Assembly (NCBI GenBank): GCA_963855995.1
Contig: OY979717.1
Coordinates: 64,226,243-64,290,242, forward strand
Length of the DNA stretch: 64,000 nucleotides
From: Muricea muricata
Taxonomy: Eukaryota > Cnidaria > Anthozoa > Malacalcyonacea > Plexauridae
Reading direction: 5' to 3'
Shown: positions 4,635 through 60,052 of the stretch, piece after piece
Position numbering within the stretch: position 1 is the first letter of the stretch
How the letters are laid out: each line of letters starts with the position of its first letter
Notes under the pieces: generated by a model
What the model saw: the letters and a program-made list of their open reading frames with translations, nothing else
The model's database searches: none
What the model was told of the DNA's origin: nothing
Translations under genes and position numbers: made by a program

Positions 4635-7600
4635 CTAAAACATCGAGCAGTATTTGTGAGCCTCTTTAGGAAAACACAAGGAACGTTTACTCTATAGACC
4701 AGTGTGAAAATAAGAAAAAATTTGTTCGTAAATTCTACAAACACCATATTTAATAGTAAGATTTGTCGTTAGTCTAGCTGATCTGTCCGTAAATGTAAAG
4801 CCTTGGATTAGCTACCAAATAGAAATCCATTTTTATGTTTACCAAAAGTTTACCAAAAATTTGAAAACAAAGTAACTTATATTTTTGCAGTTTGAATGAT
4901 AAAATGGATTTCTATTATGAACACTAGATGTGAGAATGAATTTAGATATGGCACCATTTCAAAAATTTGATGAGTACAGGCAACATTTTAAGAATTTCTT
5001 ACATTTTACAACTGAGCTCTAGTGCTTTTCAAAAAAACAAAATTTTAAGTTTATTTATATCTAAAATAAGTTTATTCAGAATGTATCAAAAAAGTAATCG
5101 AGCTTTGACGTTCTCTGTTTAACCTGATTAAAAATCTATCATACAGGAAACGGGACGAAATCATACAGAAAACATGGGGAAAGCAACGCATAAAATGGTC
5201 ACTGGGTAAATACAGTATACAGTAAGGTCTGTCACAGTAAATACACAGTATAAGGTCATATCTTAACAAGACGCCTGCTAAGGCGTTCACTTCGCCTGCC
5301 AAAACGAAAATGATTAAAAGGCAAGGCAGGGCTGTAACTAGAGAGTTCATTGGGGGGGGGGGGGGGTATACTCACTCTTTGATCATGGACTAAAGGCGTC
5401 TATCAATATTTGCCGTTTTAAAACATTTCTGGAGCAATGTTTCGATAAAGAACCTTCCTGTCCCTGTAGAATTTGCGCTTGATTCTTGTGTAGAAATTTG
5501 TAAATTTGGAAAAAAAGTGGAAACACAACAGAAAATGACGGAAACACGCTCTCAAAACTTCACCGCGATACATCGCTCCTCGCTAAAGTTTCGCGGTGGA
5601 ATTTGTCGTTTTAAAACATTTTGCATGAGAATCTTTGCACGCAAAACCTTCTTGCGGTTTAGATGTTCTAGCATACATGTTAAAATGCGTGTTTTGTTGA
5701 CATATTCCACTAGAAATTGAGTTTAAACGCCGTGTTTAGGTCGGCTCACGCGGTTTGTGCCAGCGGTATCACCCATGAGCGCTGCAACGACTTCTGACAC
5801 CGAAAAAAAAATAATAAAAAGAAAAAAAAAACAGAAACGGGGCGAATTTAAAACTCCGCCTCGCCTACGGCAGGCGGAGTAAAAATGTGAAAAACCGCTT
5901 ACATAAACTTTGTACAGTTTTAACCATAGATATAGTAGGTCTAGATTGCTGACTCATAGTATAATTACTATTGCGTAAGTGTGACCTGTATGATAAATCC
6001 AAGATGGCGCGGGAACCGGGCAAAAAACTATAAGACTCTACAGGGAAATCCATGTTTTTCGCGATTTAAAACGTCTCGTTGCTTGGAATCGCCTCGAATC
6101 AACATTTTTTCCAAACAACTAGTTATTGCGGAAGTTTTGAGCACAATTTGTATAATTTCTGTTGAATTCCTCGTGAAAATCTCGCTCGTGAAATGTGTTG
6201 TGAATTGGTCACTTGGTCAGTTCGAGACATTTGTTGTCCAAAACATGTATTTTTGACCGGCTTTGGCCTCTTGGATGTTATTGTGACCTACAGCTATCCT
6301 AAATCAAACATTTACAAAACGATGGAGCAAGATGTTCGCGTACAAATCGATTATTTGCTTGATTTGTGTGGTGTGTGATTTTCATTTACAATCATGTATA
6401 CTGTAATGCAGTGTCACAGTGTGTCGATGAATCTATGGAGCAAGATGATACATTTTTTGACGTTGCCAATTTGAAAATTATTCTAACGGTATTTGTGTTC
6501 ACTTCATACAATGTCTTTCAGGCTTAATTAGGCTTAATTGGGTTAAATTTGTGCTGAGTGTGTGCAAACTACCCAGACTGAAAAGTTTTATTTTGCGCAT
6601 AAAAGATCCTTTTCACCAGAGAATTTTGCGTAGAAATGTAGAAAACGTCTAGAGTCTAATCAGGTGGTCTGGGTTCAGTTTAGTTGATGACCCTCAGACT
6701 CAGTAAATAAATTTATCATCATCAATTTATCATTATCAATATTGAGCACAGTTGGCAGGTTAGCCTAGATTTTCTGATGATTTGTGCAGATTTCTTCATG
6801 AATTATTAATTTGATTTTATAATGACGACTAATTGTTCATTGGAATATAGCAAATGGGCATTAGAATATTGCTTTAACATACTCGCATGTTTGCAGACTT
6901 TGCTCCAATGTTGTACAAGCTAGCAAGCAGGTGCATGTTGCATTCTATGTACAGTGTATGCAAAAGTATGCTAAAGTTTACCATTATGTTAATTTTAAAG
7001 TAGACACATAGTTTAAATTCAAATAAAAAAAATTCGGTCATTAAACTGTGGACTGTTCAGTTAATTCTACCCACATTTCACACACGATTCACAGGAACGA
7101 AACTTGCAGCTGTAGCACCAGTTTTCGATTATATTTTAGTAATGCATATTACATAATTCAGACAATATTTACTTGATAACCTATCCGTCTTTGAAGTTCG
7201 AAAACAGTACGTTGGCTTGAAGTCGTATCTATGTATGTAGTAAATATTACTAACGTTCAGGTATCACACACCACACAAATCAAGCGAACAATCGATTTGT
7301 ACGCGAAGAGCTTGCTCCATCGTTATGTAAATGTTTAATTTAGGATAGCTGTAGGTCACAATAACACCCAAGAGGCCAAAGCCGGTCAAAAATACATATT
7401 TTGGACCACAAATTTCTCGAACTGACCGAGTGACCAATTCACAACACATTTCACGAGCGAGATTTTCACGAGGAATTCAGCAGAAATTACACAAATAGTG
7501 CTCAAAACTTCCGCAATAATTAGTTGTTTTAAAAAAATGTTGATTCGAAGCGATTCCAAGCAACGAGACGTTTTAAACCGCGAAAAACATTGATTTTCCT

Positions 7601-10600
7601 GTAGAGTCTTATAGTTTTTTGCCCGGTTCCCGCGCCATCTTGGATTTATCATACAGGTCACGCCTCCGATCTATGAGTCAGCAATCTAGACCTACTATGT
7701 CTATGATTTTAACTATGTTCTTTAATTGTAATTTATGTTCTCACCACTGATAGGAAAAAAAACTTGGTCACTCAACCAGTGAAGCTGCGGGAAGTTTAGT
7801 TTAATTCTGCTGCATTGTACACCAACTTGCAGGTTTCGGTAGGCAAACAACTAAGGCGTCTGTATGCGGCATTTTCGATCACTTCAATAAATATTATAGG
7901 TAAAATATTTCACAATCAATGATTTTGTTTTTATTGCTAACAAGGTATCTGAGGTTAGCCGTTTGCCATAAACGTCAATCTTAAGATCTCTATTGTGCAC
8001 TCGTATCTCCCTTGAGGAACGAGTCTGAATACGAGGTTGAGAAACATAAACAATCAGTTGACTTAATACATGTTTCTTAGAAACTAATTACCTTCTGGTA
8101 GCAGCTCCATGGTGCTTCTGAATGATTCCAAAATATTCCCAGCAGATTTTTGAAAACCAACTGCGTTTTTGATGGTCTGTAATTGCAACACTTGATTCAC
8201 ACTGTTTCCTTTATGTATCATCTCTGAATCCCGGGGCTTCAGAAGTTCGTCCTTGTCCAAAACGAAAATATTTTAAGTATAATACAGCCACATGCACACT
8301 ACTTAGAGCAAAGTAGTGTGCGAAATACTCCATACTATCGATACCGGGTTTTGACTGGAAAAGTATCGAATACACGCCACAAATATGGATTGTTTCGATA
8401 CTTTTGAGCCTGCGATTTTTTATTTATTCTGCTCAACAAACGTGTGAAAATGATGGGCAAGTACATATTGATAGAAAAGCGTGAGCTCCCCAGATCACTA
8501 TCTACGATCTCTTTTCGTTTTTGTTAAAAAAGATTTAGATAAATTCTTGCTTATAAAAGGGGAAGATGCAGAGAAGGGGACAGTGGAAATTAGAAGGGCT
8601 TATTATGACATGTATTCTCAATTTTGAAGTACCTATCTAAATTAATCCTTTTAGAAGATCGTTCTCGTGTAGTTCAGTAACACATGGTTTGTACAGGTCA
8701 GTGAGAGTAAAATTAAAGGACGTTTTAAGGACTTTCAAAGCAAACACCAGAAAATTCAAGAACTAAATTCAAGGACAGCTCTAACTGCAACATTGAAACA
8801 CATTCATCGTTGATTTCAGCTAACTTTTCACTGTAATATTCCGAACTTCGTTGCGAAGTTCAAAAGTTCGTTTCAGAATTCACAAGCAGGTTTGTAAACT
8901 AAGCATTTGATTGGTTTCTTTGACTTTAGGGGCCAATCACAGCCTTTGTTTACAAACCGGCTTGCAAATTCTGAAATGAACTTTGGAGCTTTGCAACGCA
9001 CATATGAACTTCGCAACGAAATTCGGAATATTACAGTGAAAAGTGACCTGAAATCGACGATAAAAGTGGTAAGCAATGTCATTGTTCAAAAATAGGTACG
9101 CGCTGCGTACATGTGGGCAGCCTGCAGTGTTTGATAATGGCTATTTCAAAAGCTAAAGTTATTGAAATTAAGTAAATTGGCAAAGTTTACGAAAAATAAA
9201 CATTTAATCACATACAAAACATTACACTTTAAGTAAACGAGTATTACATACATTTTTTTTAAATAAGCATAAACATATTCAAGAAGTTGTGAGGTAGTTA
9301 ATGTGTCAAATACAATTTCGCATACAGTGTACAAAACCTTGACCTGTATGTATACGAAACACAAGAATTCACAGAACAAAATATAGATAATACGAACAAC
9401 CCTTAACACAAGAAGCGTTCTTGTTCCAGGGCGGTACACATCAAGGTCGAAATCTCCGCAGACAATTTTCGTGAAGTTTGAATTTAAAAGATAGTCCAAA
9501 GATCTAGGTTCGGCAAAGTTAAGAAAAGTCAAGATATTCGTCATTTTGTGGCACTTTCACATTATCAGATATATTGACAAAAACATAGTTGCCAAATGTA
9601 TAGATGTTTTTCTTCACTCTAGTTTTTTCAATTGATGAGTATATAAATAGTCCATGACTTTCTCAAAGTTCTCAATGCGTAGGATGGGTACAACGAAGAT
9701 AAACTATGATCGGCTTTTCTGATCCTCTCCAATGAAAGTGAAATTTCGTTGTTGTTTGTTGTTCTCCAAAATACTTCGTTGCTGAGGTTGCACACTGTTT
9801 TAACTTTCTGTGAACCAATTTAATTTTACGCTTGTAGATTAGCATAAATGTCAAAAATTTGAAGATGTCCATAAATTTGATATTAGTGCCATTCATGTTT
9901 TTTGATGAATGCCATTCTCCATGAAGTGTTCTCGTGGTCACCGTATAAATACTGACAGGATCATTTCCAGAATGACCGTCAGGATTTACCTATAAATTTA
10001 GAAATACACAAGGATTATATAGAATTAACAGTTCTTTAAGCAAGCTCACTAAAATATGGCCAGCGGGGTCATACTATTTGTGAAATATCATATCAAAGTA
10101 TAATGTCAACACTTACCTCGAAATCAGTGATATCTCAGTTTAGTTTTGTTGTGATCTTTTAGACAAAAGTGAGGCCATCAGCTCGGTATAACTTCGTAAA
10201 GTATCTCAAATTTGGCAAAATTCTCCTTGCTTCACGTTGTTCGCCATGTATTGTATTTCATGAACAACTTTGAACAAACAAAAATGACGATGTTTTAGGA
10301 CAATCCGGATAGTTGGCGTTTCAAAAGCATTAACGTAACATTTTTTAGACACCAGTGGAGCGATCAGCTTGGTATAATATCGTAAAGTATCTTAAATTCG
10401 GCAAAATTCACCTTCGTTCACGTTCGCCATGCATTCTATCGCTACCTGGTGGCCGGAAGTGATTTTCGCATATATAATTTGCTTCACTTTTGACTATCCA
10501 GTCTAGTACTGGATCAGTACTGCGGACACGAACCCACAGACGATTGTACATTTTACGGTTCTCACATAGTGGGTAGCTACGCATGCGCGGCTACCCACAA

Positions 10601-45297: not shown

Positions 45298-45877
45298 GAT
45301 TAATCTCAGTACTCTCGTGATTATTAAAATTCAGAGCAGTTTTTATTGAATTTCTTAATGTTGTTGATACACTTTCAACTTCTCGACATTAAGCAAAAAT
45401 TCTGAATATAGATTTCAACAAACACCCAAGAAGGATGTCAACATCGTGACGCTTTACACGCATGTCAAACGTTGCATTAAACAACCTAGCGATCATTCCT
45501 TTGATTGCATGGTTGTGCCGACTGTATAAGGTGACTTTGACATATAGAGAGTTTCTATGATTGAGTAAACAGCGATATTTCAAACAAAAATGTTTCATAC
45601 AAATGTTTATAAAACAACTAAGCGATGTAAAAAACGTGGTGCAATGCTCAATTCTGAATAGGACTTTTTATGCAAATTTTTCGCATTACCATAAACGCAA
45701 TTTCGAGCTAAAATATCAATATCTCAACTGAAGTTGCCTCAAAATCTTATTCTAGCATATCAGAATTTAAGTATATAAGCCTTTCTTAGATACGATGTAA
45801 TTCACTAGTAGTACTGTCCGGTCCCTTTGGGAAACATTATAAATTCAAGATGGCGGCGGTCTTATTATAGATTCAAG

Positions 45878-45950
45878 ATGACATCATTGAAATGATAGTG
45901 CAAGAGGGGTCAGGATGACGTCATTCAAATGACAGTGCAAGAGGGGGTCA
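45878..45950. repeat. subterminal tandem repeat with CRE-like core, left
   Basis: Two 36-bp units: GATGACATCATTGAAATGAT... and GATGACGTCATTCAAATGAC..., each ending GTGCAAGAGGGG. The second has a perfect TGACGTCA. Mirrored at about 58887-58960. Subterminal repeats are often transposase-binding sites. CREB/ATF binding is the other reading. Confidence 0.7.
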
Positions 45951-46305
45951 TCAGGTAAGGGTGATAGTGAATGGGGTGTGAACCCTAGGTGTAAAAAAAA
46001 CACACACAGAGAAATAGTTTTTGGAATGTTCTATTTTTAAAAAGCGATCAACATAGTATTTAAATGTAAAAATGTTTGTTATATAAATGAACGAAAACTA
46101 AGTGTTCATATGTAAACTAAACGTTCGTGAAGCGTAACTGTTCGAATTGAGAACATTCTAATAATATTGAAACGAATTACAGTGATTCATTGAAAAGCAA
46201 CCATATACATAAGAATTAAACATAAATTAATATTTTTAATGTTCGTATAAAAAGCTATTTAGGCATGCATGATGTTTTTAAATTTAAAAGTTCGTAAGTG
46301 AAAGA

Positions 46306-46767
46306 CTAAATATCAACCCATAAACAATTACATCCAATGTGGCCGCATTCTAAGTAGGGTTTAATTTCCTTGGTGTCATAAAATTGATGAAGTTTCGTAA
46401 TACAGTTTGCGTGTAATTTCGTTTTACAGCACGTTGATTCTAAGTATTCTTCGTTCTGTTCGACTTTCTTTAGGTATAGGAAGCATTTTTCATCGTTGTA
46501 GTTGGAATGGCAGTAAGCGCAGGAACTTTGAACGTTTCTTGTCCGTATAAAGGAGCTATGGATCCATGTTTCAAAGCATTTACAGTGTGCGGTTTGATTG
46601 CAGCATTCGGTATTTAAACTAGGGACTGATGATTGGCTGATATCGTTTAAACAGAAGTGGCAGGTCGTTTCATCTGTGTTCGAAATGGATTTTGAAAATA
46701 ACCCGAACATATGAACAATATCTTCTCGAGAATAAGTTTCGTCTGGATGAGGTAGTTTACCAGCCAT
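46306..46767 (-). CDS. 153-aa RING-like Cys/His-rich protein, left copy
   Basis: Residues about 36-88 hold CHFC, CCNQTAHCKCFETW and CAYC, spaced like a RING or treble-clef finger (C-x2-C ... C-x4-H-x-C-x-C ... C-x2-C). A second Cys/His set follows: STCCKTKLHANC, then CGHIGCNC. This suggests a zinc-binding E3-ligase-like or DNA/RNA-binding protein, but I do not recognise the family and assign no function. A TATATAA box lies 47-53 bp before the ATG, then the GGTAAYRTTACC array, with the 71-aa gene divergent beyond. It differs from the right copy at residue 11 only (Tyr here, Asn there), so the two arms are recent copies or kept alike by gene conversion. Confidence 0.75.
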   Translation of the reverse strand: MAGKLPHPDETYSREDIVHMFGLFSKSISNTDETTCHFCLNDISQSSVPSLNTECCNQTAHCKCFETWIHSSFIRTRNVQSSCAYCHSNYNDEKCFLYLKKVEQNEEYLESTCCKTKLHANCITKLHQFYDTKEIKPYLECGHIGCNCLWVDI

Positions 46768-46813
46768 GGTTGCTTTTCAATGAACAATGGGACTAGCGTG
46801 AATTCTGGTAACG

Positions 46814-46820
46814 TTATATA
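46814..46820 (-). promoter_or_regulatory. TATA box of the left RING-like gene
   Basis: TATATAA on the minus strand, 47-53 bp upstream of the ATG at 46767. The same spacing is kept in the right arm (58019-58025). Confidence 0.6.
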
Positions 46821-46892
46821 CCAGGTAATGTTACCAGGTAATGTTACCGGGTAATGTTACCCGGTAATGTTACCAGGTAATCTTACCGGGTA
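46818..46892. repeat. near-palindromic GGTAAYRTTACC array, left
   Basis: Five 14-15-bp units of the form CCAGGTAATGTTACC or CCGGGTAATGTTACC in tandem. Each unit is close to its own reverse complement. The array fills the gap between two divergent ORFs and so could serve a shared promoter, a transposase-binding array or a replication start. Confidence 0.8.
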
Positions 46893-46921
46893 AAAATCTC
46901 ACGGGAGATCTCACGTTAGAT

Positions 46922-47137
46922 TTGATGGCTTATGATTGGTTCGCATTTGATTGGCTGAAGCGACATGGCTGCCCGAAAGCAGAGATTTTAATTAATGAAT
47001 TGGTCTGGCTAGAAACCTGCGGAAATCATACCGTACCGGGTGCCTACGCGCATTGTGCGAAACTTGAAGTGGAGGCGTACGCGTACTGGTTGGAAAAAAA
47101 CAATGAACTTTTATTAAACAATAATTTATATATTTAG
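46922..47137 (+). CDS. 71-aa protein, left copy
   Basis: Small ORF identical in both arms at every residue (57702-57917 is the mirror). It has aromatic helices (AYDWFAFDWLKRHGCPKAE and LEVEAYAYWLEKNNELLL) and two Cys plus two His in the middle. No family recognised. Exact conservation in two arms, and a start facing the repeat array, are the reasons to treat it as a gene. Gene conversion alone could also explain the identity. Confidence 0.5.
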   Translation: MMAYDWFAFDWLKRHGCPKAEILINELVWLETCGNHTVPGAYAHCAKLEVEAYAYWLEKNNELLLNNNLYI

Positions 47138-47532
47138 TAATTAACAATGAACAATATTTTAGTAATAGTAAGAACGTTTTGAACAATATTTTTTAGTAAT
47201 GTTTACCATGAAATTGTAAATATTTAGTAAGGTTTTTTGATTAAATTGTTTGTTTATACGAAAAAATTTTTAGTGTTCGTTCTGCCAGTAGTGGAGGTAG
47301 CCCAGAATGTCTTGGTGTTCGGAAAGGTCTGCTTTGAACTGCAAGTCCATCAAAAGGGAGATAAAGGGGATATGACGAATACGAAATCGTACTGATTTTG
47401 GAGAAAAATATTAGAGCGTTTCTTGGTTTGCATAAATTAACACATGGATTAACGTTTGGAATAATTTATTTTTGTAAGTATTACAGACAGTAGAGCTATA
47501 TAAGATCTTGTTAGTCTCGTACAAGTTTACGA

Positions 47533-47596
47533 GATGAGCAGATGAGCATCTGCTCATAACTGCTCATGAGTACATACTCATACGCTCATAAGGCCC
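47533..47596. repeat. TGAGCA/TGCTCA palindrome cluster, left inner
   Basis: A chain of TGAGCA and TGCTCA words forming overlapping palindromes (AGATGAGCATCT, TGCTCATGAG). Related clusters lie at 56414-56452, 56522-56572 and 57256-57318. Confidence 0.75.
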
Positions 47597-47666
47597 CATG
47601 TGGCCCGATGGCCGAGCACATATGAAACATACCTATAGTGTTTAATTATGCCTGCATAATTAGAAG

Positions 47667-48159
47667 CAGGGTTGGTAGTTTGGCCTATTAGAGGCCAAAT
47701 AACTCGATTTTGGCTCCTTTTTTTCTTGCTTGGCCTCAAAAAAAAAGTTTGGCTTTTTGGCTACTTTTTGGCCTCTTTCTATTTCAAAGTAATGCTTGGA
47801 AAATGTTTCGATCTTAGTTTGATTTTATATGTTTAATCGCCATAATAATGTAGGTATACTAATTGTGATATTAAAGGCATTTAGTATTCATGAGGACTTT
47901 TAGTATATGAGGATTATTTAGTATTCATGGAATAAATTAGCTGTGCTACGCAGTACACTAGACATCGCACTGGTTGTAAAAGAAAAGCTGAACAGCGTCA
48001 ATACCCAAAACTATTAGTAATGAGTTTGCGATAAATTTGGGCTTTTTAGCATTTGCTTGGCCGCGTTAGAAAAATTGTAGTTTGGCCTCTTTTGGTAGAT
48101 TTTGGCCTCTTTTTGCATAGCTATTTGGCTCCAAGCATGCGCAGGACCTACCAACCCGG
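47667..48159. mobile_element. 493-bp hAT-type MITE with 8-bp target duplication
   Basis: The left end is CAGGGTTGGTAG and the right end CTACCAACCCGG, flanked on both sides by ATTAGAAG (47659-47666 and 48160-48167). Removing the element rebuilds the uninterrupted LTR sequence seen at 55653-55670. An 8-bp duplication is typical of hAT. The interior is rich in TTGGCC words and non-coding. Confidence 0.9.
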
Positions 48160-48239
48160 ATTAGAAGAGCACATGTAAACAAATATGGCGGAATTTAGCA
48201 ACACGATGGGAGAAGTACATAAAGAGATTCAACAATTTA

Positions 48240-50153
48240 ATGGCCGCAATGGATGTCAAAGAGGAAAGCCGAAAACGTGCATTGCTATTACACTATTCTG
48301 GTGAAGAAGTAAATGATCTTTTTGATACACTTCCTGATACAGGCGAGGACAACGACTACAAGGGAGCTTGCGAAGCATTAACAAGATATTTTACGCTTAA
48401 AAAGAACGTTTCGTTCGAAATATTCAAATTCCGAAATCTCAAACAAGATTCGCAAGAGACTGTAGACGAATTTCACACCCGTTTGCAGATAGCTTCAAAG
48501 TACTGCGAGTTTGGCGACAACAAGGAAAAAGAAATTAAAGCACAAATTGAACTGGGGACATCGAATAAAAAGTTACGACGATACTCATTCCGTACGCCTG
48601 GTCTCACATTGACACAATTACTGGGTTATCCGAGAACACTCTATGAAACTGAGAGGCAAGCGAAAGGCATCGAAGCCACAAACCACGATATAACCAGCCG
48701 ACGTACAGAAACAGATCACGCTGATGTACACAAGATTCAAATTAACACACAGCGATCACCTAATCCCCCCACCAATAAAATGCCACAACACTCCAAGAGG
48801 AAACCTGCTCCAGCAAAAATACCTACAAAATCTCAACGTTGTTTTCGCTGTGGTTACTCATGGCCACACAACAATGGCAAGTGTACTGCTGAGGGCCAGA
48901 AGTGTAATAACTGCTCCAAATACAACCATTTTGCCAGTGTGTGTAACTCCAAAGCTAAAATCAGAGAACAACTCAACCAGGATTCCACCCATGCAATATG
49001 GAATGATATTCGATCGCCTCATTCCAATAACAACAGTAACTGCAGCAGCGACGAAAGCTCCGACAGCGACGAGAATGCCTTTACTATTAATGAAGTCCAA
49101 ACCCAGCCCAACACAAGAAAGAAACAACGCTCATTCAATGCAAACCTGAAGATAGGCAAGTCAACCATCCCTTTCCAGATTGACAGCGGTTCATCCGTTA
49201 ACATTATTGACGAAACTACGTTTCAGCGTATAAAGAAGAGCAACCCAAACATTGTTCTACGAAAATCAAGAAAACGGCTATTCGGGTTTGGCAGTCAGAC
49301 GCCCTTACCCTTGGTGGGACAGTTCGAATGCGTACTTGAATCAAAAAAGCGAATCACCAGTGCAAAGATCGTGGTTGTGAAAGGGACAACGGGCTGTCTC
49401 TTGAGTGGTCAGACGTCCATCGATTTAAGTTTCCTAACGGTCAAGGTCAACAACGTAAAGACGAAATCCACTTTTACTAAACTAGCTTCACAAGAGAAAG
49501 TTTCGCCGCGTTTAAAACCCATGGTTACCAAATACGATAAAGTTTTCCATGGAGTAGGCAAATTAACCGAGGTTCAAGTCCATCTTCACATAAACAAAGA
49601 AATAAAACCTGTGGTACAACCTACCCGCCGAATTCCGTTTGCCATTCGCAAAAAAGTTGAAAGCGAACTTGTTCGACTGCAAAAAGAAGATTTCATTGAA
49701 CCAGCGAAAGGACCATCGCTGTGGGTCAGCCCAATCGTGGCATTTCCCAAACCAAACAACCCCGAGCAGATTAGACTATGTATTGATATGCGTCAACCGA
49801 ATACCGCTATCCAACGAGAACGTCATCCTCAGCCAACAATCGACGATTTGATCCACGACCTGAATGGAGCCCGCCATTTCAGCAAATTGGATTTGTCATC
49901 CGCATACCACCAGCTAGAATTAAATGAAGAATCACGGCAAATAACAACATTCACGACTCATAAAGGACTTTTTCAATATAAAAGATTAAATTTTGGCACT
50001 AACAGCGCAAGTGAGATTTTTCAACATACGATTCAAGGCGTCTTCAATGGCATTCCGGGCTGCAGAAATATCAGCGACGATACCATTGTGTTTGGTAAAA
50101 CCCAAAACGAACACGACAAAGCTTTAGAAATGATTCTACAAGTGGCTGAGTAA
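48240..50153 (+). pseudogene. gypsy gag-protease-RT, stopped in RT
   Basis: 637 codons. The first half is a gag nucleocapsid precursor with two zinc knuckle-like clusters (CFRCGYSWPHNNGKC, CNNCSKYNHFASVC). An aspartic protease follows (FQIDSGSSVNII, 49172-49206). The reverse transcriptase includes KLDLSSAYHQLELNEE and the catalytic ISDDTIVFG near 50075. The frame ends at an in-frame TAA (50151-50153), and coding continues in the same frame to the next ORF, so one nonsense codon splits pol. The gag N-terminus is also disturbed just upstream. I expect no active element. Confidence 0.85.
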
Positions 50154-52121
50154 CGTAATCTAAAGTTCAATTTCGCCAAGTGTCAATTCGATCAAACGCA
50201 ACTGGAATTCTTTGGCTTTATTATCTCAGCAGATGGAATCTCCCCTAGTGCGAACAAAGTACAAGCTATAAAAGACGCTTCCGTTCCCCAAAATGCATCA
50301 GAAGTCCGTTCGTTCCTGGGAATGGTCCAGTACTGTGGACGTTTTATCCCCAAACTGGCTGATATCTCTGCTCCACTTCGCGCTCTTACTCATAAAGATG
50401 CAAAATGGAGTTGGGGCCCCAGACAAAAACAAGCCTTCGAAAACTTGGAACACGTGCTCACAACGGAAACGACCATGGCCTACTTTGACAGTTCGAAAAA
50501 TACAGAGTTATACGTTGATGCTTCTCCTTTCGGACTTGGTGCCATTTTAACCCAGACGACCCCTGGCCAGCAAGATACAAAAGTTATCGGATATGCAAGT
50601 CGTTCATTAACGGACACCAAAAGTCGATATTCTCAAATTGAGCGTGAATCACTGGCAATAGTATACGGGATCGAACATTTTCACATTTACTTGTACGGCC
50701 ACGAATTTACACTGATCACAGACCACAAGCCGTTAGAGCTAATTTACGGAAACCCAAAGTCACGACCCTCGGCAAGACTCGAAAGATGTTGCCTACGGTT
50801 ACAAGATTATACTTTTCGAGTAAAGTATCGACCAGGACCAGCCAATCCTTCGGACTATTTGTCTAGACACCCGCTGACCACTCGCCCAGACAACAAACAG
50901 CAAAATTTGTCCGACGAACATGTCCGTTTTGTTGTAAACCACGCTGTGCCAATGGCACTTGACGTCAACGCTATCCGTAGAGCAACACAAGATGATCCGA
51001 CATGCCAAAAACTTATTGAACTTTTGCAAAACAATTCTTGGAACTCACTTAACACTAACAACCTGCACCCTGAAATTAACACCGCTGAACTGCGCGCATA
51101 CGAGTTACTGAAACAAAAACTCTCGTTGACACCGGAAGCTGATCTCATCATTCGAGGAAATCGTCTTGTCATTCCCACCAAGTTACGCCACCAAGTCATT
51201 AGTCTAGCACACGAGGGTTACCAAGGGCTGATAAAGACCAAAAAGCTATTACGTGAGAAAGTTTGGTTCCCCAAGATTGACACTTTAACGGAAAAAGCTG
51301 TGAAAGAATGTCTCGCGTGTCAGTCGGTGGGACAACCTAGCAAACCAGCTCCCATTCAACCTATGCCAATTCCACAACAAGCGTGGGACGTCATTTACGT
51401 TGACTTTCTGGGACCATTGCCAACAAAAGACCTTCTGCTCGTTATTATCGATGGCCGTACTCGTTATCCAGAGGTTGAAATTGTTCACAATACGAGCGCC
51501 CAGTCAACCATTCAATGTTTCAAAAGTATTTTTTCCCGCCATGGCATTCCGCGAATGATTGTATCAGACAATGGTCCACCGTTCCAGGGAAACGAAATTC
51601 GCCAATATATGTCTACAAATGGGATCAAACACCGCAAAATTACGCCCATATGGCCACAAGCAAACGGCGAAGCCGAGACGTTCATGAAACCGCTAACGAA
51701 GTGTCTACAGACGGCAGTCGTTGAGCACAAAGATTGGAAACTCGAACTACAACGATTCCTGCTGAATTACCGCGCCACGCCCCATTGTACGACCAAAGTA
51801 CCACCCGCCACCGCACTGTTCGGACGAAACATCCGCACCAAGTTACCAGAGAAATCTTCGAAAGTAAACATGGAAGAGATCGACAAGAAGATCAACGAAG
51901 CTGATGCCTCAGCTAAAGCGAAACAGAAAGTCTACGCTGACCATCGTCGCGGAGCCACGACGCCAATCTTTAAAGTGGGAGATCAGGTCCTTGTTCGACA
52001 ACGTAAACGAAACAAATTAACGTCACGGTTTGACTACCGACCATATACAATCGTAGCAATAAAAGGAACGATGATTACTGCACGTCGTAACGACCATCAC
52101 ATCACAAGGAATTGTTCACAT
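50154..52121 (+). pseudogene. gypsy pol, RT end-RNase H-integrase
   Basis: Open frame after the TAA through 52121 (Met-initiated part from 50322). RNase H starts at ELYVDASPFGLGAILTQ (about 50505). The HHCC zinc region is near 51210-51320 (HEGYQGL...CLACQ). Integrase follows with catalytic D (VDFLGPL), D (SDNGPPF) and E (NGEAETF). The C-terminal part is interrupted at 52121 by the LINE and resumes at about 55261 (KPFKGTLRETNTESD), ending at the TGA at 55435-55437. Confidence 0.85.
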
Positions 52122-55100
52122 CCGAATTCAGAGCGAATCCCAGGACGTATCAGTAGCATGTGATCATGAGTGTGACCCCACACAAGACAGCAGCCAAGGT
52201 AATCCACTTAATATTTTGAACAAATTTAAGGGACTAAAAATAGCCAGTCTTAATATAAACAGCATTATGAAACATATATCGATGAATTACAAGTGTTACT
52301 GGAAAATAGTCCTATAGATATTTTGGCTATTAATGAGTCCAAAATTGATGATACTGTTTCAGATGATGAAATACATATTAATGGTTATAACATTGTTCGA
52401 AATGATCGTAACAGAAACGGTGGTGGAGTATTAATGTATATCCGGAAACCTTTATCATTCGCAGAAAGGAACGACTTGGTACCTGATTCATTGGAAATCA
52501 TATGTGTTGAGATTAAGAAACCATATAACAAGTTGTTTCTTGTATGCGCATGGTATAGGCCGCCAAGTACGGATATTAACCTGTTTGATAAATTTGAAGC
52601 TTTTCTCCATAAGTGTGATCTTGTTGATCAGGAGCTTTTAATAATGGGAGACTTAAATTGTGATGTCTCCAGATTCCCTTTAGAATGTAATGCGCGAAGG
52701 TTGCAGTTTTTGTCCTCATTATATCAGCTCGATCAACTGATTAATGAACCCACGAGGGTCACGAAAGCGTCAGCCACTTTGATTGATCTATTTTTCACAA
52801 ATAAAAAGGAGAACATTTTACAGTCGGGCGTGGTTCATCTTGGAATATCTGATCATAGTTTAATTTACGCTGTTAGAAAATTCAGTCTTCCAAAATCGCG
52901 AAAAAGTGTAAAAATTGCTCGTAATTTCAAAAATTTCAGAGCAAACGATTTTCTTAATGATATTTTGCAAATTCCATGGCATCGTATAACTTCCCATGAC
53001 AACCCTAATGTATGTTGGAAAATTTGGCAATCGCTTTATGTAAAAGTTTTGGACATGCATGCACCTATTCGGCACACAAGAATCCGGACAAATTCTCACC
53101 CTTGGATTAATCAAAGAATAAAAGAACAAATGCGACTAAGACATTTCTATAAGAAGCAGGCTGTAAAGCATAGCTCCCAAACTCATTGGAATATGTACAG
53201 AAAGACTCGTAATGATTTGAATTTGGAAATGCGTTTAGCTAAAAAGAAATACTTTTGTGATAAAATCAATGCATGTGCGGAAACTAGTAACCCTAAAAAA
53301 GTTGGTCTTTAATAAATGATCTTCTTGGAAAAAGAAGGAAATCCAATAACATAACTGAACTATGTGTTGATGACGTCACTATTTCTGAAGATGCTTCAAT
53401 TGCGGAAACATTTAATGACTTCTTTATTGATATCGGCTCTAAATTAGCTTCAGAAATTGACACCCAATGGTTGAATGAGAATAATGCTGATAGTGACACT
53501 GATAATAATACTTCCCATCTAAATACATTGTTTAAGTTTCGAACAATCTGCGAACAAGAAGTTATAACCGAGCTGAATAACCTTAAAGTGTCAAAATCAA
53601 CAGGACTTGATACTATACCAGCTCGGGTTCTTAAAATATCTACAAATATCATAGCGCCATCCATAACTTGGATTTTCAATCTTTCATTGGAAAAAGGCCT
53701 GAGTTTTACCGATATATAAATCGGATATGAATGGAAAAAGGCCTGAGTTTTACCGATATATAAATCTGGCAATAGACACAATTGTGAAAATTATAGACCA
53801 ATTTCGATTTTACCTGTTATAAGTAAGATATTGGAGAGATTAGTTTTCAACCAATTGTACAAATTTCTCAATGACAACTCATTGTTATCAAAACATCAAT
53901 TTGGATTTCGTCCAAAAAATTCGACCTTAACCGCACTAATACACATGTGCGATGAATGGTATCAAAATATGGACAACGGTAAAATGAATGGTGTTGTATT
54001 TTTAGACATTTGCAAGGCATTCGATTCGGTAGACCATCAAATATTACTAAATAAAATAAAAACACAATTTGGCCTCAGAAATATTGAATTTGATTGGTTT
54101 GTGTCATATTTAACGAACAGGGAACAGGTCTGTAATATCAACGGCAGTATTTCGTCCTCAAAAAAGATTAAAACGGGGGTGCCGCAGGGATCTATTCTCG
54201 GGCCACTTCTTTTCTTGCTTTATATAAATGACCTACCTGAGTGTCTTCAAAGGACGACTCCCTGTCTATACGCCGATGATACTCAGATATTTGCTTCTTC
54301 AGCGGATTACGGGGAACTTATTGAAAGCTTAAGTCATGACTTAAATAGAATCAGCCATTGGCTTGCAAAAAATAAAGTACAACACTATCCTACCAAAACA
54401 AAAGTAATGATAATAGCTTCGAACTACCACCTTAATAATAGAGTTCAGGATATTCCAGTGAGATTGAATGGAAAATTGATTTCCCGAACTAATTCCTTTG
54501 AGTGTTTGGGAGTTATGCTTGATGAAAGACTAAGATGGGACCTACACGTTGAAAAGACGTGTAAAAAGGTTGGTGGCGGCATAGCAGTTATGAAACGAAT
54601 TAAGCCCTTTGTTCCTGATGATACTTTGCAAACAATTTATCGAGCCATGATACAGCCATATTTTGATTACTGCTCCCCTTTATGGGGAAATTGCTCAGCC
54701 TATTTAAAAGGAAAACTACAAAGATTTCAAAATCGAGCGGCAAGGATTATTGCAAGTGCAAATTATGAAACTAATTCGGATGACGTTCTCGAAACTCTTG
54801 GCTGGGAAACTTTGGAGAAAAGACGCTTGCGGAATAAATCAGTTTTGATGTACAGAATTTTAAATAATCGCACAGCACCAAATTTGAAAGACTTGTTTAC
54901 CAGAAACAATGAACTACAGGCAAATTATGATCTGAGAAGCAGGTGTACTGACCTAGCTCTTCCTAACCCGAAAAGAGAGTTTCTTAAAAATAGCTTTGGG
55001 TATAGTGGTGCTAAACTTTGGAATAGTCTTCCTATTGAAGCAAAATTAGCTATATCTGAAAATGTATTTAAATTGAATCTCAATTAGATCTTTAATGTTT

Positions 55101-55257
55101 GTCTTTTGTATTAACGAGGGTCACACCTATCTTCTTGTATATACCTTGTAAATAGTTTTTTTTTTATTCGACGCCCCTCATGGAAACCAACTTTTGTTGA
55201 TGAGGCTAGCGTCGATTGCTTGTAACAGTTAATTTTTAAATAAAGGATACATACATA
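52122..55257 (+). mobile_element. 5'-truncated LINE (CR1/jockey-like), dead
   Basis: An endonuclease part (52293-53312) has IASLNINS upstream in another frame, then GDLNCDV and ISDHSLIYA. The reverse transcriptase (53831-55087) has FGFRPKNST, KTGVPQGSILGPLLF and CLYADDTQIF. A frameshift near 52270, another near 53302 and a duplicated 37-bp block (53690-53727 and 53729-53765) disable it. The 3' end is AATAAAGGATACATACATACAT, a microsatellite-like tail as in CR1/L2 clades. Only CAT is shared at the insertion borders. Confidence 0.9.
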
Positions 55258-55260
55258 CAT

Positions 55261-55437
55261 TTCAAACCGTTCAAAGGGACTTTGCGAGAAACAAATACCG
55301 AGAGTGATCTTGAGAGTGATGAGTCTGATGATACCATGCGTGGAAACGAGGAGGTGAGAGTTGAGGTGGACGAAAGCTTAGAGGGAAGAGACGATACAGC
55401 AGATAGAAGAGAACGTCGATACCCAGTACAGAGATGA
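55261..55437 (+). pseudogene. gypsy pol C-terminal tail, detached by the LINE
   Basis: A short acidic tail (TESDLESDESDDTMRGNEE) ending PVQR and TGA. It continues the integrase frame broken at 52121. Identified by its position and frame rather than by a domain. Confidence 0.65.
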
Positions 55438-55846
55438 GCAGAACGTCCGATAGATAAGTTGTTCTAGATACATATAGTTTATACATACTGAACACTTTAC
55501 CAGCGTACTTCAATACGCCTGGATATTTGATATTACTATTTATTAACATTAGCATAGTTTCGTTGAGTTGCGTTATTATACAATTTTGGTTTAATTTCAG
55601 TAAGTACTTTTGAACTGAACGTGGGTAGAGATATAGTGTTTAATTATGCATGCATAATTAGAAGAGCACATGTAAACAAATATGGCGGACGTTGTATTAA
55701 ACTAAGAAGAGAGACATTATAATACCATATTAAAATCTGATTGGTTTTTAGTTATCCTGCTAATAGTATAAAATGATAAATTTGAGTCGGTAAGAGCATA
55801 CCGCTTGCAACGTTCACAGAGATAAGACTTTTAGATTGCCAATTTA

Positions 55847-56110
55847 ATGGAGGATAACTTATCGCGGTTACATGACCTGAACTTATTGCGGTTACATGAC
55901 CTGAACAAGCGTGTGGCAGAGGCAAGAAAAAGAGTTGAATATTTGAAGAAAAAGAGAAATGCTTTATACCTTCGCAAAAGGACGGTTGACGTACAAGCCT
56001 GGATGTTAAACAATTTGGTAGACGATGCATGCCGTGGCCTCAAAGAAATGAGAAGACTTAGAAACAACCAGGGAACGCTGTGCTTATATTTGTTATGTAG
56101 GCTACTGTAG
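55847..56110 (+). CDS. 87-aa coiled-coil ORF inside the putative 3' LTR
   Basis: The ORF reads as one long basic amphipathic helix (NKRVAEARKRVEYLKKKRNA, then DDACRGLKEMRRLRNN). The N-terminus contains a 24-bp direct duplication (LSRLHDLN, LLRLHDLN). It lies between a TATA-like box (55766) and an AATAAA (56177). It may be an accessory gene of the gypsy element carried in its LTR, or chance coding. No family recognised. Confidence 0.4.
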   Translation: MEDNLSRLHDLNLLRLHDLNKRVAEARKRVEYLKKKRNALYLRKRTVDVQAWMLNNLVDDACRGLKEMRRLRNNQGTLCLYLLCRLL

Positions 56111-56390
56111 ATCAAATAGAAATTCATCGTCTAATGAAAAGCTGTAGTACAGCTTCTAATGAAAAGCTGTTGTAAATAAAGGATACAAACCTGTTGAGTT
56201 TGTGGACGTTGTTTTACTTTCTTGTCCTCAATACATTCACCCCACACCGGTCTCGCATTGACCCAACATAGATCTTTTGTCGGCCCCACACCACTCTCTA
56301 ATCAACCTCGTATAAGCAGATCCTCATCTGCATATACCAATAGTCGGGATCTACACAATGGTTAATAGCTGTCAATACCTAACAGTTAGG

Positions 56391-56627
56391 GCCATATCAG
56401 CATTTGAGTACCTGCTCATAACTGCTCATGAGCACATGCTCATACGCTCATAGGTCCCGATGTGGCTAGCCAAGTTAGTATAGCTATATTTTGTTAGTCT
56501 TGTACAAGTTTATGCGATAAGCAGATGAGCACCTGCTCATAACTGCTCATGAGCACATGCTCACTTGCTCATAAAAATAGAGTGCTGCTCAATGACAAGG
56601 CATTTCTACACACTCAGTTGTAGCGGA
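56391..56627. repeat. two TGCTCATGAGCA palindrome clusters
   Basis: 56414-56452 and 56522-56572 both contain CTGCTCATAACTGCTCATGAGCACATGCTCA-type chains, including the perfect 12-bp palindrome TGCTCATGAGCA. They lie just upstream of the zinc-finger gene in the unique centre of the element. Confidence 0.75.
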
Positions 56628-57150
56628 ATGAGTTGTAAATTTTGCGGGAAATCACTTAATCGTGGTTTCAATCTACGTCGACACGAAAACGAGTATTGTC
56701 CGCTGAAAACCGAAGAGAGAGAAATGTCAGAAACAGAAAATCAGAAGATGATGTTTCGAGCGTTGCAACTGACGGGTCTCAGAGTTCGATGACAACTGAG
56801 GAGGAAGAAGCGGATCCTTGGATGCCTATGGTAGAAGAAGCGATGCAAAAGCATAAGGCGGCTTTTCAAGAGATGAAGATGAATTTGACTCAAAGTGGTC
56901 TGGATGATGAGGAAACCGCTGGGGAAACAGCCTACTCTAATATTCTGCCTGAGCTCCAAAAGGAATTGGAAAGTATCTATAAGATCCGGTGCATAAGAAA
57001 ATAATGCAAACAAAGAACACGATCGTGAGCGATGATGATTTTGATCCAGAAGAGGCTATGGAAGCAGCTGTCAATAAGAGAAAATTTCTAATTAAAAGAC
57101 GTTTAAAAGACTGCAGTTTCACTGAGGACAGTGATGATGAAGAAGATTAA
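56628..57150 (+). pseudogene. broken C2H2-like zinc-finger/acidic protein gene
   Basis: It starts MSCKFCGKSLNRGFNLRRHE, a C2H2/C2HC-like finger. After a frame change near 56742 it continues in the next frame as SEDDVSSVATDGSQ, acidic EEEEADPWMPMVEEAMQKHK and a helical stretch to ELQKELESIY. A second break near 56978 leads to a third segment, DPVHKKIMQTK ... DDDFDPEEAMEAAV, ending SDDEED and TAA at 57148-57150. From memory, hypothetical proteins of this type recur in cnidarian genomes. It may have been the element's own DNA-binding factor. Confidence 0.6.
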
Positions 57151-57255
57151 TAGAAATATTTGTCATATTGTTCTCAATAAAATTTTATATAGATATCCGA
57201 GTTTGGTATTATTTTATTATGTGGGAGGGTTATAACTGTCGGGCCACATAGGGTC

Positions 57256-57318
57256 TTATGAGCGTATGAGCATGTGCTCACGAGCAGTTATGAGCAGATG
57301 CTCATCTGCTCATCTCGT
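57256..57318. repeat. TGAGCA/TGCTCA palindrome cluster, right inner
   Basis: Mirror of the left inner cluster, with small differences (TGTGCTCACGAGCAG here). Confidence 0.7.
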
Positions 57319-57701
57319 AAACTTGTAGACTAACAAGATATAGCTCTACTGTCTGTTATACTTACAAAAATAAATTATTCCAAACGTTAATCCATGTGTT
57401 AATTTATGCAAACCAAGAAACGCTCTAATATTTTTCTCCAAAATCAGTACGATTTCGTATTCGTCATATCCCCTTTATCTCCCTTTTGATGGACTTGCAG
57501 TTCAAAGCAGACCTTTCCGAACACTAAGACATTCTGGGCTACCTCCACTACTGGCAGAACGAACACTAAAAATTTTTTCGTATAAACAAACAATTTAATC
57601 AAAAAACCTTACTAAATATTTACAATTTCATGGTAAACATTACTAAAAAATATTGTTCAAAACGTTCTTACTATTACTAAAATATTGTTCATTGTTAATT
57701 A

Positions 57702-57917
57702 CTAAATATATAAATTATTGTTTAATAAAAGTTCATTGTTTTTTTCCAACCAGTACGCGTACGCCTCCACTTCAAGTTTCGCACAATGCGCGTAGGCACC
57801 CGGTACGGTATGATTTCCACAGGTTTCTAGCCAGACCAATTCATTAATTAAAATCTCTGCTTTTGGGCAGCCATGTCGCTTCAGCCAATCAAATGCGAAC
57901 CAATCATAAGCCATCAA
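57702..57917 (-). CDS. 71-aa protein, right copy
   Basis: All 71 residues are identical to the left copy (46922-47137). It faces away from the repeat array and from the right RING-like gene. Function unknown. Confidence 0.5.
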   Translation of the reverse strand: MMAYDWFAFDWLKRHGCPKAEILINELVWLETCGNHTVPGAYAHCAKLEVEAYAYWLEKNNELLLNNNLYI

Positions 57918-57946
57918 ATCTAACGTGAGATCTCCCGTGAGATTTT

Positions 57947-58020
57947 TACCCGGTAAGATTACCTGGTAACATTACCGGGTAACATTACCCGGTAACATTA
58001 CCTGGTAACATTACCTGGTA
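57947..58020. repeat. near-palindromic GGTAAYRTTACC array, right
   Basis: Five units mirrored from 46818-46892, again directly before the TATA box (58019-58025) of the RING-like gene. Confidence 0.8.
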
Positions 58021-58071
58021 TATAACGTTACCAGAATTCACGCTAGTCCCATTGTTCATTGAAAAGCATCC

Positions 58072-58533
58072 ATGGCTGGTAAACTACCTCATCCAGACGA
58101 AACTAATTCTCGAGAAGATATTGTTCATATGTTCGGGTTATTTTCCAAATCCATTTCGAACACAGATGAAACGACCTGCCACTTCTGTTTAAACGATATC
58201 AGCCAATCATCAGTCCCTAGTTTAAATACCGAATGCTGCAATCAAACCGCACACTGTAAATGCTTTGAAACATGGATCCATAGCTCCTTTATACGGACAA
58301 GAAACGTTCAAAGTTCCTGCGCTTACTGCCATTCCAACTACAACGATGAAAAATGCTTCCTATACCTAAAGAAAGTCGAACAGAACGAAGAATACTTAGA
58401 ATCAACGTGCTGTAAAACGAAATTACACGCAAACTGTATTACGAAACTTCATCAATTTTATGACACCAAGGAAATTAAACCATACTTAGAATGCGGCCAC
58501 ATTGGATGTAATTGTTTATGGGTTGATATTTAG
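58072..58533 (+). CDS. 153-aa RING-like Cys/His-rich protein, right copy
   Basis: Same protein as 46767-46306 except Asn11 for Tyr11. All Cys and His residues are kept. TATATAA is at 58019-58025. Both copies intact while the central gene is broken suggests that the arm genes are selected or homogenised. Confidence 0.75.
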   Translation: MAGKLPHPDETNSREDIVHMFGLFSKSISNTDETTCHFCLNDISQSSVPSLNTECCNQTAHCKCFETWIHSSFIRTRNVQSSCAYCHSNYNDEKCFLYLKKVEQNEEYLESTCCKTKLHANCITKLHQFYDTKEIKPYLECGHIGCNCLWVDI

Positions 58534-58886
58534 TCTTTCACTTACGAACTTTTAAATTTAAAAACATCATGCATGCCTAAATAGCTTTTTATACGAACAT
58601 TAAAAATATTAATTTATGTTTAATTCTTATGTATATGGTTGCTTTTCAATGAATCACTGTAATTCGTTTCAATATTATTAGAATGTTCTCAATTCGAACA
58701 GTTACGCTTCACGAACGTTTAGTTTACATATGAACACTTAGTTTTCGTTCATTTATATAACAAACATTTTTACATTTAAATACTATGTTAATCGCTTTTT
58801 AAAAATACAACATTCCAAAAACTATCTCTCTGTGTGTTTTTCTTACACCTAGGGCTCACACCCCGTTCACTATCACCCTTACCTTA

Positions 58887-58960
58887 TGACCCCCTCTTGC
58901 ACTGTCATTTGAATGACGTCATCCTGACCCCTCTTGCACTATCATTTCAATGATGTCATC
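58887..58960. repeat. subterminal tandem repeat with CRE-like core, right
   Basis: Mirror of 45878-45950, with GATGACGTCATC in one unit and GATGTCATC in the other. Confidence 0.65.
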
Positions 58961-59030
58961 TTGAATCTATAATAAGACCGCCGCCATCTTGAATTTATAA
59001 TGTTTCCCAAAGGGACCGGACAGTACTACT

Positions 59031-60052
59031 TTCCAGGCTCGGGCTGGCCTATGTGCCACTGTGCCATGGCACATGGGCCCCAACTGGGACATCAAATGGG
59101 CCCTCGACAATTGTTAATTTCCGTATTTGTAAACATTCAAAAATGTTTAAAACAGACTATCAGGCAGTACGAAACGAAAATAAAAGGGACCAGATGGGAA
59201 TGATTTGGAATTTTTGAACTCTTCAAGAAAGCGGTTAAATAATTCATCATGTTCTCTCCAGAATACCATAAAATCTTCACCTAAAACATTCAGGACAGCA
59301 AAAAATTTCAGGGCTCCTCTCAGTGCTCGAATGGCAAGGCCCCCTAATTGGGGCCAGTCCGAGTCTGCTACTTTCACTTAGTTCGGGCTGTCCTACATTT
59401 TCTCGTATATCAAATGAAAGAGGAGCACTTTTTGAGAACCATTCGCGGTACATGGTATATAGCGTATTGAACTTTAAGTGTACAATGTACTCTTATTTAT
59501 TTATGTTGATCCTTGGGTTTGTTAATAATAAAAATTACAGTTCTCTCCCTCATCAATAATTTTATTTGTAACGGCTCAAAAAAGGCAAACTTCTTTGGAT
59601 AACCACAATGCATTGCCATATGCTAAAAAACAAGTTGGGCATCACTATTCGTCACTGCATGCTGTTGGACTAAAAATCAGCCTATTTTCAGAAGCACCGT
59701 GCAATGCCATGCAAAGATGCTAAACTCGATTATTTTGAACATGGTTTTGGCAAGTCGAGTACGGTGATTTCCAATGCAAACATTTCACGCACAAGGAGTG
59801 GTAACCGTCGCAACTATTGAGATCATCTATAGTTTTTCTTTTCTTCTTGTTGGGGAAACAGGTTAATTATGATGAGGAAATATCGAAGAACTGGAATCCG
59901 ATAATCCTTACTAGTTTTCCAACGAAAATTAGAATTTGCTGAAGGTCGTGTTTCCTAAGGGTGATGAACCGAGCAAAACCAAGAAAGACTGTTTCTAAAA
60001 ATGAAATTTTATAGTTTTGTGTATACAAGCTTTGTTTTCACATCCGCGTAAT
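59031..60052. other. intergenic stretch right of the large element
   Basis: GC-richer repeat-like sequence at 59040-59110 (TGTGCCATGGCACA palindrome). A 76-codon minus ORF (59377-59147; RALRGALKFFAVLNVLGEDF) looks helical but has no known motif. It may be an old transposon-derived piece. Confidence 0.35.

Follow-up and report, generated by a model that had tools for sequence, protein, structure and literature searches.

What kind of mobile element carries the same two intact genes in each of its inverted arms, and how could such an element move? The question is raised by a 64,000-nucleotide stretch of the cnidarian Muricea muricata (contig OY979717.1, positions 64,226,243 to 64,290,242; the whole stretch is called the window), in which an element of this kind runs from position 45807 to 59030. 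The initial annotation, made from the letters alone, had left the choice between an undescribed class of non-autonomous element and a Polinton-like derivative. The termini, a 6-bp target site duplication (TSD), the relatives and a 14.7-kb relative bearing polymerase B (PolB) together with the arm genes speak for the derivative and not for a class apart from Polintons, and the element very probably descends from a Polinton/Maverick of the same genome, as a non-autonomous derivative shaped by deletion and rearrangement. Loci, contigs and proteins used for comparison are cited by our own L, C and P numbers.

Inverted arms and target duplication

The left terminal inverted repeat (45807..47608, plus strand) starts with AGTAGTACTG and the right one (57239..59030, minus strand) has ACTACT as its final bases, the termini being AGTAGT at 45807 and ACTACT at 59030. 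The two arms align over 1,792 sites with 20 substitutions and 10 gap columns (Kimura two-parameter distance 0.0113). Each arm holds an intact RING-like open reading frame (ORF) of 153 amino acids (aa) (46306..46767, minus strand, and 58072..58533, plus strand) and an intact 70-aa ORF (46925..47137, plus strand, and 57702..57914, minus strand), and in the left arm an array of 13-bp repeats lies between the two divergent ORFs (46819..46893), with its counterpart in the right arm at 57946..58020. Both the doubled two-gene unit and the array in each arm had been recognized in the initial annotation and are borne out, with the smaller protein corrected from 71 to 70 aa and the combined difference between arms from one residue in 224 to one in 223 (Y12N). 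An assembly artefact is an unlikely source of the arms because they differ at 20 sites, their flanks differ and related elements were found elsewhere. The array units are near-palindromic, a possible regulator or replication site, and a similar array was seen in L056, close to where the element C1:112836357-112840400 ends on the right.

When a later Ty3/gypsy insertion is taken out, the element proper measures about 5,131 bp. By comparison with L010, the right arm appears to have lost about 0.85 kb, a counterpart of which is retained on the left side (55723-56573).

The raw flanks of the element are unequal, TTCACT on the left and TTCCAG on the right. The right flank is interrupted by a hAT-like miniature inverted-repeat transposable element (MITE) of 334 bp (59034..59367), with its own 8-bp TSD CTACTTTC (59026-59033 and 59368-59375) and end bases that agree at 14 of 16 positions; a scan of the 64-kb window for CAG..CTG ends, an exact 8-bp repeat and agreement at 11 or more of 16 end bases gave no other candidate. 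Since TTCACT reads again beyond this MITE, the target duplication is 6/6, with the left copy at 45801..45806 and the right copy, split by the MITE, at 59373..59378.

A comparison of the outermost 344 bases of the left arm with the 453-Mb genome gave at least 58 matched stretches (40 of 71 candidates scored), among them ten further inverted pairs of 1.5-8.9 kb, and the ends in this family start with AGTAGT or a near variant. Within the window AGTAGTACTG, with up to one mismatch allowed, occurs only at the two element ends and is exact at both, a count which, taken alone, is no higher than chance would give (mean 2.21 at one mismatch). The 6-bp duplication could be scored in eleven end-pairs, namely the window element, nine of the ten inverted pairs (for the tenth, C2:56966058-56970766, no left end could be located) and a 47-kb pair of doubtful standing (C1:27984707/28031685), and agreed at 6, 6, 6, 6, 6, 5, 5, 4, 4, 2 and 0 of 6 bases; 110 mismatched left-right pairings used as control gave a mean of 1.63, with none at 6/6, one at 5/6 and three at 4/6. 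The clean duplication that had been looked for is therefore present, exact in five of the eleven pairs and at 5/6 in two, other AGTAGTACTG-bounded copies exist, and the single-copy locus named beforehand as grounds for refutation is not what we found.

Probable descent from Polinton/Maverick elements

The longer relative with polymerase B that the initial annotation had called for was found in L017 (C1:26549000-26558900). It contains a PolB ORF (PF03175, E 1.2e-17), a second ORF behind it which reads like a continuation of PolB and had no Pfam match, the 5' part of the C2H2 gene, a RING ORF and a GRF zinc-finger ORF (PF06839, E 3.2e-7), and it ends in an AGTAGT terminus at local position 8482. 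The left end was predicted from the right flank and was found 14.7 kb upstream in the correct orientation, with 90.7% inverted homology over a 462-column alignment that reaches the edge of the 501 bases read and a duplication of TTTGTA/TCTGTA (5/6), giving an element of 14,701 bp. The place at this left end that mirrors the RING gene (201 bases) is occupied not by RING but by the C-terminal portion of a 113-aa protein (P0012, working label EXO70), the translation agreeing with P0012 by eye.

This protein is the parent of the smaller arm gene: the 70-aa ORF matches residues 52-108 of the 113-aa P0012, whose gene was found in PolB-bearing relatives, and is without the N-terminal half. RING and EXO70 stand at opposite ends of L017, on the right and on the left respectively, and are adjacent and doubled in the window. 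The window element thus has ends and genes in common with a core-gene-bearing element of the same genome (PolB, RING, EXO70, part of the C2H2 gene), which is what identifies a non-autonomous derivative. The same pieces occur together elsewhere. In L020 an AGTAGT terminus is followed by a partial RING module and then, 2.8 kb inward of the terminus, by PolB (E 1.9e-26); EXO70 stands beside PolB pieces in L023 (residues 1-111 of 113), L024 (1-111) and L025 (1-84); and in L026 a RING paralogue (33% identity) stands beside the same terminal module. An 'LRR' label given by eye to an ORF of L017 and L019 was unconfirmed, and the interpretation of ORFs of L017 and L022 as Bcl-2 was unsupported.

That the element has no polymerase or integrase of its own, as first proposed, holds for the element proper and not for everything in its centre, where both kinds of domain occur inside a nested Ty3/gypsy element and a nested long interspersed nuclear element (LINE). 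No protein-primed PolB was found among the element's ORFs; the sole integrase domain in the nine ORFs scanned, where a retroviral-type integrase was looked for, is that of the gypsy element; and capsid, packaging ATPase and protease gave no match in the element-proper ORFs scanned, an aspartyl protease trace belonging to a gypsy ORF. A weak tblastn match of the L020 ORF at 54320-54568 lies inside the nested LINE and mostly outside the PF03175 match of that ORF. With the core replication and integration genes lost, the element probably moves with help from complete Mavericks of the same genome. With 82 of 505 candidates scored, PF03175 matched this genome in at least 178 stretches, a single gene often accounting for two or three of them, and matched none of 14 control genomes, and this abundance makes PolB supply in trans plausible. 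At several loci equally scoring PF03175 frames stay open for about 1,300 aa, which suggests recent Maverick amplification in the genome.

A survey of vertebrate Mavericks gives (AGT)2//(ACT)2 as the commonest end motif, with (AG)3//(CT)3 as alternative, 6-bp TSDs, a core flanked by accessory regions in most elements, lengths of 12.7-24.6 kb, and inverted repeats of 46-1,447 bp in intact elements (PMC8097293). The (AGT)2//(ACT)2 termini, the 6-bp TSD and the inverted repeats of the window element are of Polinton/Maverick type, and its 14.7-kb relative falls within the length range given, whereas the window element is without core genes, measures about 5.1 kb and has 1.8-kb repeats that exceed the quoted maximum; unlike in Polinton/Maverick elements, its accessory genes are inside the repeats and so occur twice. 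MITEs and other deletion derivatives of DNA transposons likewise keep their ends, have lost their enzymes and presumably moved in trans, but the window element has intact genes in its repeats and a broken central gene. Poxvirus-type inverted terminal repeats contain genes, and the doubling of accessory genes in the terminal repeats of a linear DNA element is a likeness to them in layout only, those genomes being unrelated and far larger. We found no literature on non-autonomous, defective or MITE-like Polintons or Mavericks in a search with most subscription journals outside it, which is weak evidence of novelty.

Several observations weigh against descent from a Maverick, and we have to set them beside the evidence above. 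No Polinton integrase or capsid was identified in the relatives, the full-size ones not having been surveyed for them, and an NTPase-like ORF with a motif seen by eye (C2:31611885-31612202) gave no informative Pfam match. Some end-pairs are weak, with 0/6 in one, 4/6 in two and 2/6 in the 47-kb pair, which is probably not one element and was rejected as such. The 16-mer predicted for the left end of L017, with up to one mismatch, occurs 3 times forward and 13 times reverse in the 453-Mb genome against 13 and 6 for a backward control, a total of 16 against 19 which is not commoner, and only the location of one match counts. The reading of L017 covers about 9.1 kb out of 14.7 kb, leaving about 5.6 kb unread. 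Among the relatives looked at, the exact arm layout of RING plus 70-aa ORF was found at the window locus alone.

An ORF with an integrase core (rva_4, E 3.3e-22) was seen in L018 at 1392-2376, about 3.7 kb from its RING copy and close to an ORF that matches CUE, zinc-ribbon and, weakly, HECT domains; it probably belongs to another transposon and was not taken as a Polinton integrase.

Arm genes and alternative explanations

A search with the RING protein returned nine proteins among 15 candidates, the window's own included, with P0008 at 36% identity. Against zf-RING_2 the window copy scored 14.6 bits and P0002, P0003 and P0008 scored 19.5-25.3 bits, all below the curated cut-off of 27.3, while a profile of five RING sequences matched PHF7 (E 0.003) and RNF13 (E 0.064). 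Structure models of mean pLDDT (predicted local distance difference test) 33.9 and 56.2 were too poor to support fold searches. The label EXO70 goes back to a conjectured RNase H or exonuclease function of the 70-aa family, for which Pfam and PDB gave no match. Viral contigs searched with the RING protein and RING alignment, the 70-aa protein and EXO70 alignment, and the C2H2 piece and C2H2 alignment contained no real relative, the single match being 12 residues of an acidic stretch that was not counted, and phage records gave no match. The arm genes look like accessory genes and not mobility genes.

The chance that the arm genes are functionless passengers, their ORFs intact only through the youth of this copy, falls slightly short of even in our judgement, and would be compatible with descent from a Maverick. 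Both window RING copies have Tyr at a Cys of the second zinc-binding pair, as does L017, in which the RING reading frame also diverges at the C-terminus; this Cys is kept in P0002, P0003, P0005 and P0008 and in copies L016, L018 and L021. The loss of the N-terminal half of its parent by the 70-aa ORF points the same way as the Tyr, and so does the RING paralogue of the related L010-L015 family, which stops after 42-50 aa in the eight arm copies looked at (six loci) even though the arms of L010-L013 are 97.5-100% identical. Selection is suggested, on the other hand, by the arm-to-arm differences, of which five of the 20 substitutions are coding and four of those five synonymous (P 0.006 at equal rates, a value whose weight transition bias would lower). 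It is suggested too by the ratio of non-synonymous to synonymous rates (dN/dS) of the RING gene, 0.12-0.59 and below 1 in 15 of 15 pairs, though such selection may have acted in full-size elements. The six sequences compared were the two window arms, L016, L017, L018 and L021, with L019 (frameshift) and L020 and L027 (partial) left out.

A second explanation, which we regard as very improbable, is a fold-back origin of the arms, an inverted duplication made locally in the chromosome, under which this copy would never have been mobile. Two family members are of a form that this would produce: C15:8065759-8067234 (L044) is one complete 1.5-kb palindrome, 92% self-complementary and without a central region, and the relative at C11:1815800-1826800 (L066, L011 and L067) is centred in a larger palindrome with its flanks mirrored too. 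The window flanks, however, are unmirrored and carry a perfect 6-bp duplication, from which it follows that this copy inserted as a unit. The outer arms of the C11 palindrome are a tandem satellite of 1,255-bp units, 97.3% alike, and the C11 block is found on other contigs as well (98.7% to L010, C15, 6 kb; 97.6% to L013, C1, 5.4 kb).

The least probable origin, and one we hold to be remote, is an element of another integrase or transposase superfamily (Ginger or similar) that acquired Polinton genes: long inverted repeats with a short duplication do not by themselves name a superfamily and the full-size relatives yielded no identified integrase, but PolB lies between the same kind of ends in the 14.7-kb relative, and AGTAGT with a 6-bp TSD differs from the TGTNR termini, 4-bp TSD (5 bp in TDD-4 and TDD-5) and repeats of about 40-300 bp given for Ginger (PMC2836005). 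Ginger1 and Ginger2 are transposons with a Gypsy-type integrase and have cnidarians among their hosts, which is where the likeness lies.

Central gene, related elements and nested insertions

The central C2H2 gene (working label 'DPW'; 56592..57150, plus strand) is broken by frameshifts over three frames, as had been noted at the outset, and relatives of about 200 aa exist. With a piece of it as query, 178 proteins were found among 179 candidates, the best 120 listed being 69-97% identical, and judging by these matches it belongs to a large gene family. The element proper also contains an 87-aa ORF (working label SMALL87; 55847..56110, plus strand).

The L010-L015 family, L014 and L015 being separate stretches of the same locus, has a single central C2H2 gene and, outside it, SMALL87 and a RING paralogue of 31-42% identity, which both arms carry in L010-L013. 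Inner-module matches of this family comprise at least 11 inverted pairs and at least four unpaired (40 of 874 candidates scored). Other arrangements are found at C2:3198250-3202369, where 1.39-kb arms, 94% identical, each have a zinc-finger ORF (Pfam C2H2 for the left one), and at C3:25584874-25592760, which has SMALL87 in each arm, a central C2H2 gene and a perfect duplication CACTGG. The layout of gene-bearing arms and a central C2H2 gene recurs in several relatives, with the arm genes different or decayed.

Mavericks are thought to be integrated viruses, and adintoviruses are kin of Polinton/Maverick elements. Under descent from a Maverick ancestor, the core genes would have been lost and the right-end RING module would have been joined to the C-terminal half of the left-end EXO70. 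The joined segment may then have been duplicated in inverted orientation to form both arms round one C2H2 gene, perhaps during linear-DNA replication. Replication and integration would be performed in trans by the PolB and integrase of complete Mavericks, the arms supplying the ends used, and the RING protein may modify host ubiquitin signalling. The element inserted with duplication of TTCACT, and the gypsy element, in which a LINE and a MITE landed in turn, and the flanking MITE came afterwards. A genome as rich in long open PolB frames as this one, with short derivatives that have Maverick-type ends, is a natural setting in which to ask about satellites that exploit Mavericks, and gene-bearing inverted arms offer a route for doubling and reshuffling accessory virus genes. 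It is conceivable, though in our estimation rather unlikely, that mini-elements made of inverted gene-bearing arms and one C2H2 gene form a lasting class of Maverick satellites which, like satellite viruses, have given up the core genes, keep or swap the accessory genes that their arms carry in duplicate (RING, C2H2 zinc finger, SMALL87), and multiply at the cost of complete Mavericks.

The Ty3/gypsy insertion (47634..55722, plus strand), which is later and not part of the element, is 8,089 bp long including its own nested insertions and has a 4-bp TSD, TACC; its limits are set by relatives L010, L013 and L014, which are without it and represent its empty site. In its interior are gag, reverse transcriptase (RT), RNase H and integrase domains of the gypsy element and an endonuclease-RT of the LINE. 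The ORFs of this nested non-LTR (long terminal repeat) retroelement span 52254..55087 (plus strand), and a hAT-like MITE of 493 bp (47667..48159), with an 8-bp TSD ATTAGAAG read by eye, lies in the gypsy 5' end. Assignment of positions 55637 to 56268, approximately, to a gypsy LTR was wrong and was rejected because the relatives show that 55723 onward is element-proper. In L022 an ORF is present in both arms of a short inverted repeat (4906-5355 and 5943-6335; 552 bp, 97.8%), and the beginning of this ORF is similar to the N-terminal region of the PolB-side ORF of L020, with 52-54% identity over about 60 aa.

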